From a virus: a stretch of DNA of 49,148 nt. The notes beneath the pieces were generated by a model. It was not told where the DNA came from. It worked only from the letters and a program-made list of their open reading frames with translations, and made no database searches. This document shows, piece by piece, positions 5,126 through 40,668 of the stretch (the first letter of the stretch is position 1; each line of letters begins with the position of its first letter). Location of the stretch: positions 1-49,148 of the IMG/VR virus record IMGVR_UViG_3300043470_000280. One strand, written 5' to 3'. Made by a program: the position numbers and the translations under genes.

Positions 5126-5287
5126 ATGATAAGTTATATTAATCAAACAGTCAAGGACTTAAACGATTGCGTAGACGAGATTTACGAAGGTTTAATGGAT
5201 AAAGAATCCGAGGAGGTTTTAAGCGCTATTAAAAAGCTAGACAAAATCACGAGAGAGATAAAAGAAACTCTAAAAGAAGAACTGTAA
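5126..5287 (+). CDS. Small helical protein, unknown
   Basis: 53 residues (MISYINQTVKDLND…), strongly helical and charged, with a possible coiled coil at SEEVLSAIKKLDKITREI. It follows the putative promoter at 5102 and its TAA overlaps the ATG of the phosphoesterase gene (TAATG). The coupling and the good codon structure support a real gene. No function can be assigned. Confidence 0.6.
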   Translation: MISYINQTVKDLNDCVDEIYEGLMDKESEEVLSAIKKLDKITREIKETLKEEL

Positions 5288-6507
5288 TGAAATTCACGAA
5301 AGATCAGATCGACAGGTTTAACGAGTTGATGCCTCAGCATGACTTCTCTATATCACTGTCGGCCAAGGCACTGTGCTCTGAGTTGGGGGTGCCATACACA
5401 GACTCCATACGTAGGAACCTAAGCAACCACGTAAACAGAGAGACACATACCAATCAGTACGAAGCCTCATCGAATATGTCTGCCCTCACAAAGGACGGGG
5501 TGCTGATGGATATAGACGAGTACTGCGCACACTACGGGATACCGAGGAGCCACGCAAGGACGTACAAGCTAGTGACACACACTGGGACGCCATACTACAA
5601 CATAGCGTCCAATGTAATAGAAGAAGCTACCTACGTAAGTGAGTACGAGTTAAAGCACCTTATAGAAGAAGGGCTGAAGTCGGTAACATTAAGACCTAAT
5701 GCTGTTCTTAAAAACAAAGGTAAGACTGGTGTTGTAAAGATAGCCGACCTTCACTTAGGAGCGTATGTAGACAACCTAATAAAAACCAAGGATTTTTCGA
5801 TTGACATCTTGGCCCAGAAATTATATGATGCGGCAAATATGGTTAATGAAAGAAACTACAAGTTAGTTCACATCCATATTTTGGGAGATATAATTGAAAG
5901 TTTTACGGGTCTTAACCATAAGAACTCTTGGAAGGGTTTAGACAAGGCTATGGTTGGAGCAGAGGCTATTAAGCTAGTAGTAAGGGTTTTGCACGATAAC
6001 TTCCTTTCAAGGATTAACAATTTAGGAGAGGTTAAAGTTGTTGCTGGCAATCATGACAGAGTCTCTTCAGACAACAAAGAAGACGTTTGGGGTGGTGCAG
6101 CGAACCTTGTGTGTTGGGGCCTTGGACTTATAGGGTATAATGTTGAGTTTAATCCGTTGGTTATTACCCACGTTGTGGACAGCATCTGTCATATCATTAC
6201 TCACGGGCATCACGGCATAAGTGGCAAGACCACAAAGCAAATTTGTTGGGACTACGGAGTTCAAGGTAAGTTTAACCTTGTGTGTGAGGGTCACCTACAC
6301 AGCATCATAGAGAAGTTGTCTATAAGACAGCGAGAGTTGTTTCAGGTCATCAAGGATGATTCGGTAGACCACAGACGTATGAACTGCCCATCGTTCTTCA
6401 CGGGTAACTTCTATAGCGAGAGCTTGGGTTATACGTCACAGAGTGGATTTGTTGTAACTGAGGACAACGGCAAGGGTGTCCCGAATGTATTTTATTATGC
6501 TGTTTAG
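5287..6507 (+). CDS. Calcineurin-like metallophosphoesterase (SbcD/Mre11-like nuclease or phosphatase)
   Basis: 406 residues. An N-terminal stretch of about 150 residues resembles a DNA-binding or helix-turn-helix region (LCSELGVPYTDSIRRNLSNH). The metallophosphoesterase core shows all family motifs: D154-x-H156, G200-D201…E204, GNHD (254-257), HGHHG (about 306-310) and GHLH (335-338). Stand-alone phage proteins of this class are usually annotated as DNA repair exonucleases, though activity on other phosphodiesters is possible. It ends at 6507, directly before the AT-rich cassette region. Base composition changes inside the gene: the first 400 bases look like the replication block, while about 5690-6200 is clearly more AT-rich. 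Confidence 0.8.
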   Translation: MKFTKDQIDRFNELMPQHDFSISLSAKALCSELGVPYTDSIRRNLSNHVNRETHTNQYEASSNMSALTKDGVLMDIDEYCAHYGIPRSHARTYKLVTHTGTPYYNIASNVIEEATYVSEYELKHLIEEGLKSVTLRPNAVLKNKGKTGVVKIADLHLGAYVDNLIKTKDFSIDILAQKLYDAANMVNERNYKLVHIHILGDIIESFTGLNHKNSWKGLDKAMVGAEAIKLVVRVLHDNFLSRINNLGEVKVVAGNHDRVSSDNKEDVWGGAANLVCWGLGLIGYNVEFNPLVITHVVDSICHIITHGHHGISGKTTKQICWDYGVQGKFNLVCEGHLHSIIEKLSIRQRELFQVIKDDSVDHRRMNCPSFFTGNFYSESLGYTSQSGFVVTEDNGKGVPNVFYYAV

Positions 6508-6528: not shown

Positions 6529-6849
6529 ATGAGTAAGCAATCAACTATCAGAAAAACACACAACACCCGCTTGAGGTTAGGTGATGTTATAGCCCTTTTT
6601 TCTTTATTTTCAACTGGGCTTATTCAAGTTTACTTTGTTGCAGTCAATACTTATTTTATAGCAAACGAAATGTATTTAGGGGTTTTAATTGCTGCTTTTA
6701 TGATTAGCTTAATTTGGTCTTTCAACGTTAAGAAAATCGCCTTCGGCTCAACAACTGATAGAGTCGTCTATGCTTTAGGAGCTACTTGCGGGAGCCTTGT
6801 CGGGCTATGGTCTAGTTCGTTTATCGCTTTGGTTTTAAATGAGTTGTAA
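6529..6849 (+). CDS. Small integral membrane protein (first ORF of cassette region)
   Basis: 106 residues with a basic N-terminus (MSKQSTIRKTHNTRLR) and three hydrophobic segments of about 20 residues (near 20-40, 47-67 and 80-102). It is AT-rich, unlike the replication genes before it. Its TAA stop lies inside the TAACG of the first attC-like site, the same arrangement as in two later cassettes. The expected complement of its 3' end (GTTACAACTC) is not seen upstream, so whether it is itself a cassette is uncertain. No family recognised. Confidence 0.65.
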   Translation: MSKQSTIRKTHNTRLRLGDVIALFSLFSTGLIQVYFVAVNTYFIANEMYLGVLIAAFMISLIWSFNVKKIAFGSTTDRVVYALGATCGSLVGLWSSSFIALVLNEL

Positions 6850-6937
6850 CGTTTTGCGGCTTTGCGATGGCCGCCAAAGAAGAATTTAATTATTAACCGA
6901 GATTTGTCAGGCAGCTATTGCAAAACCGATGTTAGCC
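6844..6937. repeat. attC-like recombination site 1
   Basis: 94 bp from TTGTAAC (6844-6850, R''-like) to GTTAGCC (6931-6937, R'-like). The stem arms are 6856-6875 (GCGGCTTTGC…GCCGCC) and 6910-6928 (GGCAGCTATTGCAAAACCG); 15 of 19 positions pair and the rest are transitions. It shares TAACG-TTTTGCGGC on the left and CCGATGTTA on the right with site 5. Length and layout match integron attC sites (about 57-141 bp). Confidence 0.7.
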
Positions 6938-6966
6938 GCTAGCCTTTCTCATAACACAAAATAAAA

Positions 6967-7167
6967 ATGAAAGCAAAAGTTATTATTGAAAATGGAGAAA
7001 CAACGATTGTTTTAACTCCTGAAAACGAATTTGAAATTGATGTAATTGAAAAGGTGCATTGCAAAAAAGAAAAGCATAACATTCATACTCAATTTGAAGC
7101 ACAATACAATTATGGAACTTACTCTAAACATAAGATTGAATTGTCAATTAGGGAGGAGCGTCCGTAG
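6967..7167 (+). CDS. Cassette-borne hypothetical protein A
   Basis: 66 residues, AT-rich, with alternating beta-type segments (KAKVIIENGETTIVL) and a basic middle. It sits between attC-like sites 1 and 2 and is the only ORF of that segment. The segment's first bases (GTTAGCCGCTAGCCT at 6931) are complementary to its last (AGGCTTGCGGCTAAC at 7166-7180) at 14 of 15 positions, as expected of a mobile cassette. No function recognised. Confidence 0.6.
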   Translation: MKAKVIIENGETTIVLTPENEFEIDVIEKVHCKKEKHNIHTQFEAQYNYGTYSKHKIELSIREERP

Positions 7168-7173
7168 GCTTGC

Positions 7174-7305
7174 GGCTAACGATTTGCAGATTGCCGAAGG
7201 TGGGGCATTATACCACTAAACTTTAATTGAAACAATAAATTTTATAATATGAAAAATGTTGATTTGAAAAACGAAACCCACACTTTTGGCAATGTGCTGT
7301 TACCT
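7174..7305. repeat. attC-like recombination site 2
   Basis: 132 bp from GGCTAAC (7174-7180) to GTTACCT (7299-7305). The short stem arms are GCAGATTGCC (7186-7195) and GGCAATGTGC (7288-7297), pairing at 9 of 10. The large loop contains the ATG at 7249 of the following ORF, so the right arm lies inside the coding frame. Confidence 0.65.
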
Positions 7306-7647
7306 GCTGTTAAATTGTGTGTAGGGCAGAAACTTTGGCTTGTTCGTTCACATCATTACAGAAACGATGATAGAACTCCAAAAGAAGTTACAATAAGTAA
7401 GGTAGGTAAAAAATATTTTGAACTTGAAGATTATCCAAGAGCAAAATTTGAAATTGAAACATTAAAGCAAGTAACGGAAACTAACTACATTGATAGGTGT
7501 CATTTAACATTACAAGAGATACTGGATGAAAGGGAGTTTGATAAACTTGTAGGTGAAATTAAAAATATTTTTGGTGGATATGGAAAGCCAAAGTTGACAC
7601 TAGAACAACTGCGTAAAATTAAGGATGTGGTGGGTGGCAAAATTTAA
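7249..7647 (+). CDS. Cassette-borne hypothetical protein B
   Basis: 132 residues if translated from the ATG at 7249, which lies in the loop of attC-like site 2. The recombination point (G^TT at 7299) falls at codon 17, so the first 16 residues belong to the upstream site and not to this cassette. In-frame alternatives are GTG at 7294 and TTG at 7315. The conserved-looking body starts at VGQKLWLVRSHHYRN, where GQKLWLV suggests a small beta-barrel start, and it ends in a helical, lysine-rich tail. It is AT-rich. Family not recognised; the true start is unresolved. Confidence 0.55.
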   Translation: MKNVDLKNETHTFGNVLLPAVKLCVGQKLWLVRSHHYRNDDRTPKEVTISKVGKKYFELEDYPRAKFEIETLKQVTETNYIDRCHLTLQEILDEREFDKLVGEIKNIFGGYGKPKLTLEQLRKIKDVVGGKI

Positions 7648-7651
7648 TTGC

Positions 7652-7773
7652 AGGTAACGCCCGCCGCTTGTTGCTGTTTGCGAATTAGAACTGCGTACTC
7701 TCGGCTAAGAAAAAAGAAGTAAAAAACGATTAAATAACTAAAACCCGCAAATAGCTACAAACGGCTGTTATAA
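7652..7773. repeat. attC-like recombination site 3
   Basis: 122 bp from AGGTAAC (7652-7658) to GTTATAA (7767-7773). The arms are GCTTGTTGCTGTTTGCG (7666-7682) and CGCAAATAGCTACAAACGGC (7746-7765), an imperfect inverted repeat with isolated mismatches. An additional outer pair AACGCCCGC (from 7656) / GCGGGTGTT (from 7780) lies outside it. Confidence 0.7.
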
Positions 7774-7802
7774 GAAGTAGCGGGTGTTTAAATTAAGACG
7801 TA

Positions 7803-7961
7803 ATGAGAATTTCAGTAAAAGTAAAAGATGTTGTTGTTGAAATGGATGATAATAGTGATTTAACTCTTGTTAAATACGAACCCCACAACAAAGAGATTCA
7901 GAAAATATTAAAAATTATGTGTGAAGAAGCTATAAAAATACTAAAAGAAAGAGAATCGTAG
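7803..7961 (+). CDS. Cassette-borne hypothetical protein C
   Basis: 52 residues (MRISVKVKDVVVEMDD…KERES), beginning with a beta-hairpin-like region followed by a helix. It is the sole ORF between attC-like sites 3 and 4. Its TAG is 6 bases before the next R''-like TACTAAC. The short length and AT-rich codons match the neighbouring cassette ORFs. No family recognised. Confidence 0.5.
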   Translation: MRISVKVKDVVVEMDDNSDLTLVKYEPHNKEIQKILKIMCEEAIKILKERES

Positions 7962-7967
7962 TATTGC

Positions 7968-8044
7968 TACTAACGTTTCGCAGCCTTGTACTGCCGCCTA
8001 TGCGGTTGCGAGATTTTGGCGGTAGTTCAAGACTGCTGTTATAA
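7968..8044. repeat. attC-like recombination site 4
   Basis: 77 bp from TACTAAC (7968-7974) to GTTATAA (8038-8044). The arms are CAGCCTTGTACTGCCGCC (7981-7998) and GGCGGTAGTTCAAGACTG (8018-8035), pairing at 15 of 18. It has the shortest loop of the five and the clearest attC-like shape. Confidence 0.75.
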
Positions 8045-8075
8045 GTAGTACGGATAATTTAAACAAAAAGTAATT

Positions 8076-8300
8076 ATGGAAAATGTATTAATTCATCTTA
8101 AAATATCTAAAGTAGATTTTAATTGTCCTAAATGTGGCAAAGAATACAGCGATGAAGATGATAAATATCTTAATAGATGTGAAAAAAACAAAAACTTTAG
8201 AACAAATATTAAATGTAAATGTGGTAATTCATTTTATATGACTTACAACTATATGGGTAACGCTGTTTCATTTGAAAAGGAGTCAAAGTATTACTTATAA
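8076..8300 (+). CDS. Cassette-borne zinc-ribbon-like protein D
   Basis: 74 residues with cysteine pairs CPKC (C17, C20) and CKC (C47, C49) plus C35, suggesting a small zinc ribbon. The rest is charged and AT-rich. It is the only ORF between sites 4 and 5. Its segment ends are complementary: GTTATAAGTAGTAC at 8038 against GTATTACTTATAAC at 8288-8301, 13 of 14. The TAA stop is part of the R''-like TTATAAC. The role is unknown; zinc ribbons commonly bind nucleic acid or protein. Confidence 0.6.
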   Translation: MENVLIHLKISKVDFNCPKCGKEYSDEDDKYLNRCEKNKNFRTNIKCKCGNSFYMTYNYMGNAVSFEKESKYYL

Positions 8301-8419
8301 CGTTTTGCGGCTTGGCGAAGTTGCCGAACACAAAACTTCATTAGTAGTACAAACTTTAAAATTTAGATAAAATGTCAATAGAAGGACAAAACGGCAATTT
8401 TGCCAAACCGATGTTATCG
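8295..8419. repeat. attC-like recombination site 5
   Basis: 125 bp from TTATAAC (8295-8301) to GTTATCG (8413-8419). The arms are 8307-8326 (GCGGCTTGGCGAAGTTGCCG) and 8392-8410 (CGGCAATTTTGCCAAACCG), pairing at 16 of 19. The loop contains the ATG at 8372 of the next ORF. An ATG at 8411-8413 uses the G of the recombination point G^TT. Confidence 0.75.
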
Positions 8420-8644
8420 GCAGGTTTTTTTGAAGAACTTGGTTTTTATGAAACGTCACCGCAACCACTATACAAATTACCATTACCAACAGTGGGCACA
8501 TATTTACTTGCTACCGATGAAGGGTCTTTGTGGATGGAATATGATGAAGGTAATGGTGAACAATACAAGCAAAGTGTTGGGGTTGGTAAATTTACTGAGC
8601 AAGATATTATCTCTCTTGTTTCGGTTCTGCAAACTTGCCGATAA
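8372..8644 (+). CDS. Cassette-borne hypothetical protein E
   Basis: 90 residues from ATG 8372, or 77 from the in-frame ATG at 8411 that straddles the attC-like crossover point. Residues MSIEGQNGNFAKP are encoded by the loop and right arm of site 5, so they are not part of the cassette proper. The body (PLPTVGTYLLATDEGSLWMEYDEG) looks like a genuine small domain. The TAA stop lies in the terminal R''-like CGATAAC. The segment is bounded by GTTATCGGCAGGTTT and AAACTTGCCGATAAC, which pair at 14 of 15. Function unknown. Confidence 0.5.
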   Translation: MSIEGQNGNFAKPMLSAGFFEELGFYETSPQPLYKLPLPTVGTYLLATDEGSLWMEYDEGNGEQYKQSVGVGKFTEQDIISLVSVLQTCR

Positions 8645-8655
8645 CTCATCGCTAA
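8631..8655. repeat. Incomplete terminal attC-like half site
   Basis: AAACTTGCCGATAAC (8631-8645) is the R''-type end of cassette E and pairs with its start at 8413. It is followed by TCATCGC, but no second stem arm or GTTA is found in the next 150 bases. The last site therefore seems truncated or rearranged at the junction with phage sequence. Confidence 0.5.
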
Positions 8656-8687
8656 GAGCATATTTTACCGACTTATACAACAAAACT

Positions 8688-8977: not shown

Positions 8978-9433
8978 ATGAGTAGATACGAGCTAATAAA
9001 GGAATACCCAGGCAGCCCTTGCTTGGGAACAATTGTAGAAAAAGATCCACTATCTAAGTCTTACTATCACCGTGACGAAGATAAAAAATGGTGTATACTA
9101 AACAATCACGTTGAAAACAACCCTGAGTATTGGGAGAAACTTAATGAGAATATTTATTGGGTGGTATCTACTGAAATATATAAACAGTTTGGACAGGTAT
9201 TATTCTTTGCTTGGACTATATATAAAGTGGAAGCATTTGAACCTAAAGATTCTGTGATTAAATATTTCAAAACAAGAGAAGAAGCCGAAGGATTTATTTT
9301 ATACAATAAGCCATGTCTAAGTTATGATGATGTTTGTAAAATGTTTAATTCTTCAAGAGATTTTAAAGGAGATGTTATGACATTTAGGATTAGCGAAAAA
9401 TCATTAAAAGAATTTGTAAAAAGCAAGCTATGA
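8978..9433 (+). CDS. Conserved-type phage protein with 'YELIKEYPGSP-LGTIVEKD' N-terminus
   Basis: 151 residues. The N-terminal segment (YELIKEYPGSPCLGTIVE…ENNPEYWEKL) is of a kind I recall from many Bacteroidota phage proteins of unknown function; that recollection is not verified. The second half may form another small alpha/beta domain (FKTREEAEGFIL). It overlaps the dNMP kinase start by 4 nt. It is AT-richer than the replication genes. Confidence 0.6.
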   Translation: MSRYELIKEYPGSPCLGTIVEKDPLSKSYYHRDEDKKWCILNNHVENNPEYWEKLNENIYWVVSTEIYKQFGQVLFFAWTIYKVEAFEPKDSVIKYFKTREEAEGFILYNKPCLSYDDVCKMFNSSRDFKGDVMTFRISEKSLKEFVKSKL

Positions 9434-38394: not shown

Positions 38395-40668
38395 CTACCT
38401 TATAATTCGACTCTGCGAACCTTCGTTATTATATCTTGCAAATTTAATGCTTATTTTACTTTCTTTTTTAACAGGTGTGTACAAGTGCTTTTGGTTGGCC
38501 ATAATAGCTAATCCTGAGCTAATTGCGGCGTCGAACTTCGTCCTATCGTTTATGTCAAACTTAGCCCAGTCCTCTAAAGTCCTGTTGAAATACATTGTAC
38601 CCATCTCTTCTGGGTCTCTGTAAGTTCCTTCAGAGTCATACCCCACATGCTTCTCTATGTATGTCTCAATAGCTGTTGCGTGAGCCTGCTTAACGTCTTC
38701 TGATGAGTTCGGGATTCCACCCAACTCCTTCTCTGTCTTAGACAGCTTTGACATATGCCTGTCTGGCCTGTTCATTGAGTAGTTTCTGTACCCGTTGTTC
38801 TTGAAGAAATACAATAATCGCTGCTTGTTGTTTTCTATCAATACAGGCATGCCGTAAAAGACACAGGCCATCAACACGTCTTCAAAGAATATCTCGGCCG
38901 TTTGTGGTCTTGATATGTACTCAAGGAAAAACTCATTCACTGGAGCATCGTCCATGTGGAACTTAGTCATGCCATGAAGAGACCCGTTAGACCCCCTGCC
39001 GAATACAGTTGCGGATATGTCGTAGGGGTCGCATCCAAAAGCTCCTAAGTGTTCATTTCCAGGTGATTTCATACCGTTCTTAAGGATATACCTGTTCTGC
39101 ATATTCGTAGGCGGTATCCAAGACACAAGGAATCGGCCCCTAATGTCTGGGGTCCACACAACATTCCCAAACTTCACTCCATCCTTCCAGTGAAACGAAC
39201 CCCTTGTGAGTACCCTCTCCTTAATCAAGGAGTCATTGTACTCAATCTGCTGGTATATCTTTGTCAGGTTGAATATAGACGACTTACTCTCGTCTCGAAA
39301 CGCATGGCTAATGGTTCGGGGGTACTGTCTGTAGTGCTCGTTTAGCGCAGACGGATTAGACTTTAGTGAGTCTACCTCGTTGTTCCAGTACTCTACAGCG
39401 CCCATCTCAATCTCCTTGCCATCAATACCTAACACTGGTGAGTCGGGAGTTTCTATGACTGGCATCCCGTACCGATCTATAAACCCCTCCATGTTCCACT
39501 CCATAGGAATAAACAAGGCGTACAGCCCCGACTTGGTCTGCCCGTTAGCGTTTCGTTCATTGACGTCTGAATCGTAGTATAGGTCCTTAAAGTTTTGACC
39601 CCCTTTGTTCAGTGCGTTTACAGTAGAACCCATCATACACTTACCGATGACATTCATACCAACACGAAGACAGGTCTTTCTTACCCTCCATCCGTTAAGC
39701 ACGTTGTTTGGAGCCTCTAACTTACCTGCCTCGTCCTCAACGAGTAACTTCAGCTTCTCACCGTCGTAAGAGTTGTCTGCGGTATTCCTCCAGTCTATAG
39801 ACGAGTCAAGACCCTCTACATCCCCTGAGAGGTCTTCAAGCATGTTCTTCTTTGTTATCTTGGATGCAGGTATTCGGTATGCAAGCTCTGTCTTAGGCTT
39901 GTCCATACCGTCCTGAATTGGCTTGAAGAAGAATGGGTAGTTGGAAGATATTGGCACCACCTTGTTGGTGAACATAGTCTTCGCATCGTGCCCTGACTTT
40001 GATACTATACCTATCCGTGATTTCTTGGTTATTGTCCCAATATTTACAGACTCTGATGAAGCCATGAACGAGAACCCTGAGCGACGAATCTTAACGTATA
40101 CCATCCCGAATGATCTGTCGTCAGCCTTGCAGGCCTCCCAGAAAAGCCAGAATATCCTGTTTGCCTCCCTGTAGTCTGGAAGACCCACGTCAATCTTAGT
40201 CCATTGGAGGTACATATAATTGGAGCCTGTTATATAGGTCGGCTCTCCGTTATTCATAAACCAAAAGCCGTACTCCCTTCTATCGAACTCCTCCTCTATA
40301 TATCCTACCCACTTTGACTTAAACTCCTTCGGGGCGTTGTGCCACATAGCAATATTCTTGATACGAGCTAACTCAGGAGGGTACTCAAACGGCTGCCAGT
40401 ATTGCTCTCTCTTTGTAACAGACCTCTTGTAGACGTTGTCAGGCACGGCTGGAACGGCCACGTTTAGGCCCTGTATATTGTAGATAGAGCCTATGGTGCC
40501 ATCCCTTGATATAACGACCATGTCGTACTCCTTGTTGTATCCGTAAGCCCAATCCTTTCGCTTGTTTCTAGAGGAAATAACCTTCGGGTCTATTAGCCCT
40601 ACCTCTTGAAATAAACTACCTTGATCTTCGCTCAGCGAATCCAGAGCCCGATAGCGCTTCTTCTTCAT
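38395..40668 (-). CDS. terL: Terminase large subunit (ATPase/nuclease)
   Basis: 757 residues. Before the ATPase, PTYITGSNYMYLQWTKID and REANRIFWLFWEACKAD form a conserved TerL patch. The P-loop is of the KIRRSGFSFMASSE type (about 190-203), lacking a classical GKT, as in many Bacteroidota phage TerLs. Walker B is LKLLVEDEAGKLE (about 305-316). The nuclease domain includes FGCDPYDIS (about 543-551). It packages DNA into procapsids through the adjacent portal. The N-terminus overlaps the putative small subunit gene by 53 nt. Confidence 0.85.
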   Translation of the reverse strand: MKKKRYRALDSLSEDQGSLFQEVGLIDPKVISSRNKRKDWAYGYNKEYDMVVISRDGTIGSIYNIQGLNVAVPAVPDNVYKRSVTKREQYWQPFEYPPELARIKNIAMWHNAPKEFKSKWVGYIEEEFDRREYGFWFMNNGEPTYITGSNYMYLQWTKIDVGLPDYREANRIFWLFWEACKADDRSFGMVYVKIRRSGFSFMASSESVNIGTITKKSRIGIVSKSGHDAKTMFTNKVVPISSNYPFFFKPIQDGMDKPKTELAYRIPASKITKKNMLEDLSGDVEGLDSSIDWRNTADNSYDGEKLKLLVEDEAGKLEAPNNVLNGWRVRKTCLRVGMNVIGKCMMGSTVNALNKGGQNFKDLYYDSDVNERNANGQTKSGLYALFIPMEWNMEGFIDRYGMPVIETPDSPVLGIDGKEIEMGAVEYWNNEVDSLKSNPSALNEHYRQYPRTISHAFRDESKSSIFNLTKIYQQIEYNDSLIKERVLTRGSFHWKDGVKFGNVVWTPDIRGRFLVSWIPPTNMQNRYILKNGMKSPGNEHLGAFGCDPYDISATVFGRGSNGSLHGMTKFHMDDAPVNEFFLEYISRPQTAEIFFEDVLMACVFYGMPVLIENNKQRLLYFFKNNGYRNYSMNRPDRHMSKLSKTEKELGGIPNSSEDVKQAHATAIETYIEKHVGYDSEGTYRDPEEMGTMYFNRTLEDWAKFDINDRTKFDAAISSGLAIMANQKHLYTPVKKESKISIKFARYNNEGSQSRIIR

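Follow-up and report, generated by a model that had tools for sequence, protein, structure and literature searches.

The window examined here is the whole of an IMG/VR record of 49,148 bases (IMGVR_UViG_3300043470_000280), which carries phage structural genes, for example that of a large terminase (38398-40668); the designation of the sampled contigs as viral is that of IMG/VR. At 6850-8644, directly behind a phage gene (6529-6849), lies an array of small open reading frames (ORFs) and five hairpin sites resembling the attC sites of integrons. Counted from crossover point to crossover point, it comprises five complete units, A to E, each with an attC and an ORF (Table 1). A sequence-only reading of this DNA had described five attC-like sites and one small ORF in each segment between them. 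The five units agree with this, but the ORF of unit E (8372-8644) occupies a further segment that ends at a TAAC without a hairpin: its closing sequence reads GTTATCGGCA...TGCCGATAAC, with no further hairpin behind.

A covariance model (R1) was made solely from 15 sites of Flavobacterium phage filifjonk9-1. This unrelated isolate was reached through the 74% DNA identity of attC 5 to a site in Flavobacterium phages. In the 49-kb window R1 matched the five sites exactly (E 2.8e-7 to 1.4e-13; coordinates in Table 1), and its next-best place had an E of 1.6. A second model (R2), made from 25 bacterial attC sites beside recombinase genes and kept in their own orientation, gave minus-strand matches at these five sites of the window (E 3e-8 to 2e-21). 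The attC fold was therefore found at all five sites that the sequence-only reading had put forward. The helices covary in the source alignment of R1: 89% of the cells are paired, and two-sided changes occur in 54 cells compared to 18.4 in shuffles. The core G|TT, seen as TAAC/GTTA, is present in all five sites of the window. When the plus strand was folded, the R box was paired at each of the five and the plus strand was always the more stable one, as expected of the recombining strand.

The ends of the cassettes also fit such sites. The sequence after a site is complementary to that before the next one for the site pairs 1-2, 2-3 and 4-5 (following sequences GTTAGCCGC, GTTACCTGC and GTTATAAGTAGTAC, respectively; paired ends in Table 1) and only weakly so for sites 3-4. 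Complementary ends were clear in three of the four internal cassettes and were recognised by eye in the terminal one, and they are expected if each cassette was once closed into a circle. The higher AT content claimed for the array holds towards the left (GC content 0.34 in the array versus 0.40); however, 10-11 kb of the window is equally AT-rich (0.35), so that composition is weak evidence. A search of the window against Rfam gave no match. The two models and the closure bear out an integron-type cassette array inside a phage genome. As the best explanation of the whole, it is very probable that 6850-8644 consists of five integron-type cassettes and that their five attC sites belong to the type that accompanies recombinase genes in Bacteroidota chromosomes.

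Ten large Bacteroidota regions have attC sites beside a tyrosine recombinase gene, which is broken by a stop in one of them (L312). In every case the attC sites lie 3' of the recombinase gene, with the R1 strand opposite to it, and in eight of the ten regions the cassette ORFs are co-directional with the recombinase in 44 cases against 2. Ordinary integrons are laid out in the same way, so the canonical orientation is the reverse complement of R1. The opposite choice, with the crossover at GTTA, was rejected because of these bacterial arrays and of the indels in sister phages described below. It was also the one taken in the sequence-only reading, which missed the inversion of the ORFs and the two ORF starts inside attC.

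A phage ORF between two sites runs out of the preceding attC, whereas a bacterial ORF runs into its attC. The ordinary orientation of a cassette ORF, starting at the G|TT end and stopping before attC, was not found as the arrangement of the phage arrays. When the sampled sites were counted (one 18-base pattern, the 150 best sites of each set) and only clear cases were considered, inverted and ordinary ORFs stood at 103:1 in phage segments and 7:49 in bacterial segments. Counted per contig, the ratios were 45:1 and 3:20, respectively (Fisher p 3e-13). Among the bacterial exceptions, L231 appears to be a phage contig, as it bears a terminase-like ORF. Another, L215, belongs to the recombinase-linked array of Flavobacterium kayseriense and is a cassette of the phage type; its protein shares 88% identity with filifjonk9-1 gp007 over 76 residues, starting exactly at the junction. 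The other exceptions look like repeats or spurious ORFs. The recombinase-linked array of F. kayseriense (L315:1-9508) also contains type I restriction-modification-like subunits and a DUF262-like protein next to its one phage-type inverted cassette.

Near-identical Flavobacterium phages from the Baltic Sea differ by whole units of attC plus ORF. Apart from two indels, each of them at TAAC, the compared region of filifjonk9-1 and mumin6-1 shows 99.6-99.9% identity. With two further events, seen between mumin6-2 on the one side and mumin6-3 and tooticki6-1 on the other, there are four indels in total, all at TAAC. The distinct ends of near-identical blocks were surveyed in 11 sympatric phage genomes, including seven added ones. 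As many as 58 of the 70 ends were at TAAC, either at the TAAC end (R'') of a site inside an array (37) or at the array end TAAC|phage (21); the rest fell inside a site (7), elsewhere (3) or at the GTTA end (2). In more distant phage pairs, conserved blocks of at least 350 bp ended at TAAC (R'') 17 times, at GTTA (R') five times and inside a site five times. These longer matches were used because an earlier boundary survey with short matches had been confounded by attC-only matches, in bacteria above all.

The TAAC breakpoint is the G|TT point of integrons on the opposite strand. These breakpoints indicate that the mobile unit is attC plus ORF as written in the sequence-only orientation; on the other strand this unit corresponds to the ordinary one, which runs from crossover to crossover. 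Precise gain and loss of cassette units at the crossover point are seen in the sister phages. At the right end of the Baltic arrays, the match of the phage flank begins at most 4 bases from the TAAC|TACAATATT end in all 46 Baltic phage records that have this flank. Several different cassettes adjoin this fixed end, which thus behaves like an entry site. By analogy, the right flank in the window (8645-8687) is expected to be the side where new cassettes would enter.

On the left, nine homologues of 6529-6849 were found in other viral contigs (61-73% identity), without attC behind the gene. Since it is an ordinary phage gene that has no attC in relatives, the array begins at its stop codon; this TAA is that of the TAAC of site 1 and marks the insertion point. 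A single cassette made of 6529-6849 and site 1 was considered and rejected, as the nine attC-free homologues mark an ordinary phage gene. Among 29 relatives collected with the upstream gene 5287-6507, attC matches were present in five (L009, L019, L020, L025 and L031). The presence in only some relatives suggests that arrays come and go. An array-free allele of the window would be expected to read ...GAGTTGTAACTCATCGC... In the search for an empty site, only L004 had both flanking genes; the DNA that separates them there is unrelated and contains no attC. The reconstructed empty site (6834-6849 joined to 8645-8652) is ATGAGTTGTAACTCAT, a near-perfect inverted repeat, which may be due to chance. 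In L004, the closest relative, GGATAACGTTTTGC (9160-9180) directly follows the same upstream gene and resembles the first attC arm; it may be a remnant or a chance likeness.

In the window, ORFs 7249-7647 and 8372-8644 begin inside attC 2 and attC 5, respectively, and run in frame across the junction; the former has no Met after it. We counted an attC ATG as in frame when it lay 27-85 bases before the junction and was followed by at least 40 further codons in frame. Such an ATG was present in 64 of 160 phage sites, compared to a mean of 25 and a maximum of 37 in 2000 trials of random re-pairing, and in 3 of 144 bacterial sites. The context upstream of the attC ATG is A-rich (86% A at -12), which fits the Kozak-like starts described for Flavobacterium. 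Translation would then begin at the attC-borne ATG, and peptides such as MIDRITEQPFCQTR of the methylase gp010 would be expected if its attC leader is translated. Homologous ORF bodies align from the first residues after the junction, whereas most of their leaders show no relationship except where attC is conserved as a whole. Bodies that are alike behind different leaders indicate that the leaders are exchanged over longer time scales. The other end of the site is used as well: the TAA of TAAC (R'') is the stop codon of the upstream ORF at 36 of 154 phage sites versus 9 of 129 bacterial sites. Three ORFs of the window end in this way (6529-6849, 8076-8300 and 8372-8644). A promoter inside attC was considered too and is not supported, with the Bacteroidota-type motif TAnnTTTG on the coding strand below expectation (9 versus 22). 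In the phage attC sets this motif is rarer than expected both in and just before attC.

The cargo of 117 phage cassette proteins included 25 of the N6_N4_Mtase family, five C5 methylases, three Mom proteins and single members of further methylase families. In several methyltransferase bodies the stretch from the junction to the conserved domain contains no Met. The window cassettes encode small proteins without assigned function, except for a ProQ-C-like one and a weak zinc-ribbon match. For the Baltic phages, Nilsson et al. (2020, PMC7077304) report that a specific methyltransferase was missing from isolates whose plating on one host was reduced. Counter-defence may be the selective benefit of the cassettes.

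As the sequence-only reading had stated, no integrase gene was found in the window; there is no match to the tyrosine recombinase family PF00589, with the reservation that the record may be incomplete. The array-linked recombinase of Bacteroidota aligns to IntI4 (2a3v) in two pieces, and chain residues 181-246 are skipped. Matches to TIGR02249 were below the cut-off for all six proteins (two pieces in five, one piece in L308 of 304 amino acids). For NF040815, four proteins were at or near the cut-off, L314 was somewhat below and L308 well below. The enzyme is IntI/Xer-like without the IntI-specific domain. Loci with an IntI/XerA-like recombinase that lacks this domain are L309:13755-14792, L311:8845-9888, L314:8302-10044 and L317:7811-8851. 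Some forms of the array-linked recombinase have a long N-terminal extension (558-585 amino acids). As integron integrases are recognised by the missing domain, standard integron searches may overlook this system. Because the phage has no recombinase, the enzyme is most likely supplied by the host, and the shared site type and crossover point make a host Xer/IntI-like recombinase the likely mover of phage cassettes.

From the identity and polarity of the sites, the inversion of the ORFs, the position of the breakpoints in relatives and the matching of frames, we propose the following mechanism. The array sits at a minus-strand G|TT site, at the stop codon of 6529-6849. Cassettes would enter, leave and be reordered by site-specific recombination at the TAAC (G|TT of the other strand) of the folded attC, carried out by a host-supplied recombinase. 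The ORF, inverted relative to attC, reads out of the hairpin, and for this reason attC could work as punctuation: its TAA often ends the preceding gene, while its loop would give a start codon and a short leader to the next one in about 40% of phage sites. We consider the chances even that Bacteroidota phages keep their own class of inverted-ORF cassettes with attC as a portable stop-and-start signal. In that case a host recombinase other than a true IntI would let phages exchange counter-defence genes (DNA methylases, Mom) among themselves and now and then with host arrays. Inverted cassettes caught in a host array would lie antisense to the transcription of that array and therefore be silent.

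Several points weigh against this proposal. Alignment with relatives revealed attC arrays in some of them and turnover of units in sister phages, but no sister of the window phage with an empty site came to light, and gain and loss are therefore seen in relatives only. Over longer time the leaders switch at the other attC end, and the link between attC and ORF is not absolute. The window sites have only G|TTA instead of the full heptamer GTTRRRY (GTTACAA, GTTAGCC, GTTACCT, GTTAGTA and GTTATAA in canonical orientation); the heptamer also varies among bacterial sites of the same attC family. The longer arm of the present hairpins lies opposite the side that bears the extra base in class 1 attC, and this asymmetry alone would suggest the other polarity. 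The counted sites come in part from related contigs and are not fully independent. Finally, both R1 and R2 miss the attC-like hairpins of Polaribacter phage P12002L. In this phage (L307:29940-38970) short TAACG...TGTTA hairpins, recognised by eye, stand between methyltransferase genes with the same polarity to the ORFs, and they may represent a second attC-like family.

An ordinary cassette array could instead have been captured passively from the host, in which case its orientation would be nothing special and the ATGs in attC would be due to chance. Known attC clusters look ordinary in some phages, according to the 2023 phage survey (PMC9892861), and the chromosomal array of F. kayseriense does hold a phage-type cassette 88% identical to a Baltic one. 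However, phage and bacterial orientation differ (p 3e-13 per contig), and in-frame ATGs are 2.5 times the permutation level in phages and not above it in bacteria. In addition, the lack of a Met between junction and conserved domain in several methyltransferase bodies and in ORF 7249-7647 speaks against chance starts. Passive capture is already disfavoured by the orientation and ATG counts, and we regard it as improbable. It is very improbable that the hairpins are terminators or translation signals between phage genes, with blocks shuffled by illegitimate or homologous recombination at short TAACGTT: the breakpoints do have only TAAC or TAACGTT in common, the sites do bear stop and start codons and the phage has no recombinase, but the same hairpin family, with its structure conserved while the sequence varies, forms arrays directly beside a bacterial recombinase, and breakpoints fall at one hairpin end (37 at R'', 21 at the array end) against two at the other, though both ends share the 4-bp core.

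The phage setting of cassette arrays is not new, contrary to what the sequence-only reading had supposed, because arrays in virulent phages have been published. In the 10,705 phage genomes of Qi et al. (2023, PMC9892861), 17 attC clusters without an integrase were reported, and several phage attC sites were recombined by IntI1 in a conjugation assay. These clusters of attC sites lacking integrases (CALINs) resemble the present array in having no integrase and in carrying DNA methyltransferase cassettes. The main text of that paper does not treat Flavobacterium, inversion of ORFs, attC-borne starts, breakpoint polarity in sister phages or the type of the host recombinase. No account of inverted phage cassettes or of attC-borne start codons was found in the open-access literature, and within it the ORF inversion, the exchange of units at TAAC in sister phages and the attC-borne ATG and leader are new. 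A translation signal within an integron site has its closest precedent in ORF-11 of attI1, where a recombination site likewise has a start codon used to express the adjacent cassette (reviewed in PMC8876359). There, the signal lies in attI and acts by translational coupling, whereas the phage ATG belongs to attC and forms one continuous frame with the cassette ORF. The sedentary chromosomal integrons of the Vibrio type have arrays beside a tyrosine recombinase and share the complementarity of circular cassettes, the G|TT crossover and one small ORF per cassette. In contrast to these, the window has no integrase and no established attI, and its ORFs run out of attC instead of into it. The Baltic Sea Flavobacterium phages have the same attC family, long arrays and many DNA methyltransferases; the paper describing them (PMC7077304) does not mention integrons or cassettes, and links one methyltransferase to plating efficiency. 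Our results suggest that virulent phages of a major aquatic phylum can swap anti-restriction genes on a bacterial platform, and that one and the same site serves recombination and translation punctuation. The Baltic phages and the Flavobacterium strains that they infect are in culture, so that both cassette exchange and its effect on infection are directly testable.

Table 1. Features of the cassette array and its flanks in the window; the minus strand of sites and units is the canonical one (R2).
Feature	Coordinates	Strand	Evidence and remarks
Upstream phage gene	5287-6507	+	Query for collecting the 29 relatives; 87% identical relative in L004
Left flank gene, ordinary phage gene, no assigned function	6529-6849	+	phrog_6764 (PHROG match); nine viral homologues without attC
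attC 1	6844-6937	-	R1 E 2.8e-7 on +; R2 E 2e-10 on -
Cassette unit A (attC 1 + inverted ORF 6967-7167)	6850-7179	-	Closure GTTAGCCGC/GCGGCTAAC (sites 1-2)
ORF of unit A, 66 amino acids, no assigned function	6967-7167	+	Weak phrog_29681
attC 2, with ATG (7249) and 17-codon leader of following ORF	7174-7305	-	R1 E 8e-13; R2 E 6e-18 on -; fusion
Cassette unit B (attC 2 + inverted ORF 7249-7647)	7180-7657	-	Closure GTTACCTGC/GCAGGTAAC (sites 2-3)
ORF of unit B, 132 amino acids, start inside attC 2	7249-7647	+	Phage_ProQ_C_like PF24203 from residue 22 (Pfam E 3e-17); phrog_3032
attC 3	7652-7773	-	R1 E 4e-9; R2 E 2e-11 on -
Cassette unit C (attC 3 + inverted ORF 7803-7961, 52 amino acids)	7658-7973	-	Lies between the TAAC of site 3 and that of site 4; weak closure
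attC 4	7968-8044	-	R1 E 8e-8; R2 E 3e-8 on -; DNA fold z -3.4
Cassette unit D (attC 4 + inverted ORF 8076-8300)	7974-8300	-	Closure GTTATAAGTA/TACTTATAAC (sites 4-5)
ORF of unit D, zinc-ribbon-like	8076-8300	+	Weak Pfam match; stop TAA is that of TAAC of site 5
attC 5, with ATG (8372) and 14-codon leader MSIEGQNGNFAKPM of following ORF	8295-8419	-	R1 E 1e-13; R2 E 2e-21 on -; fusion
Cassette unit E (attC 5 + inverted ORF 8372-8644), last before phage sequence	8301-8644	-	End GTTATCGGCA ... TGCCGATAA|C at 8642-8645
ORF of unit E, 90 amino acids, start inside attC 5	8372-8644	+	Stop TAA is that of the terminal TAAC
Right phage flank, begins CTCATCGC	8645-8687		Expected entry side of new cassettes, by analogy with the Baltic TAAC|TACAATATT end
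Right flank phage gene	8688-8969	+	87% identical relative in L004

A relative of the ORF of unit A was found in a cassette of another phage (L009). In Flavobacterium cheongpyeongense (L199:933-6959), near-identical attC sites follow each other at intervals of about 440 bases in which no clear ORF is present, which gives the appearance of tandem cassettes without ORFs.

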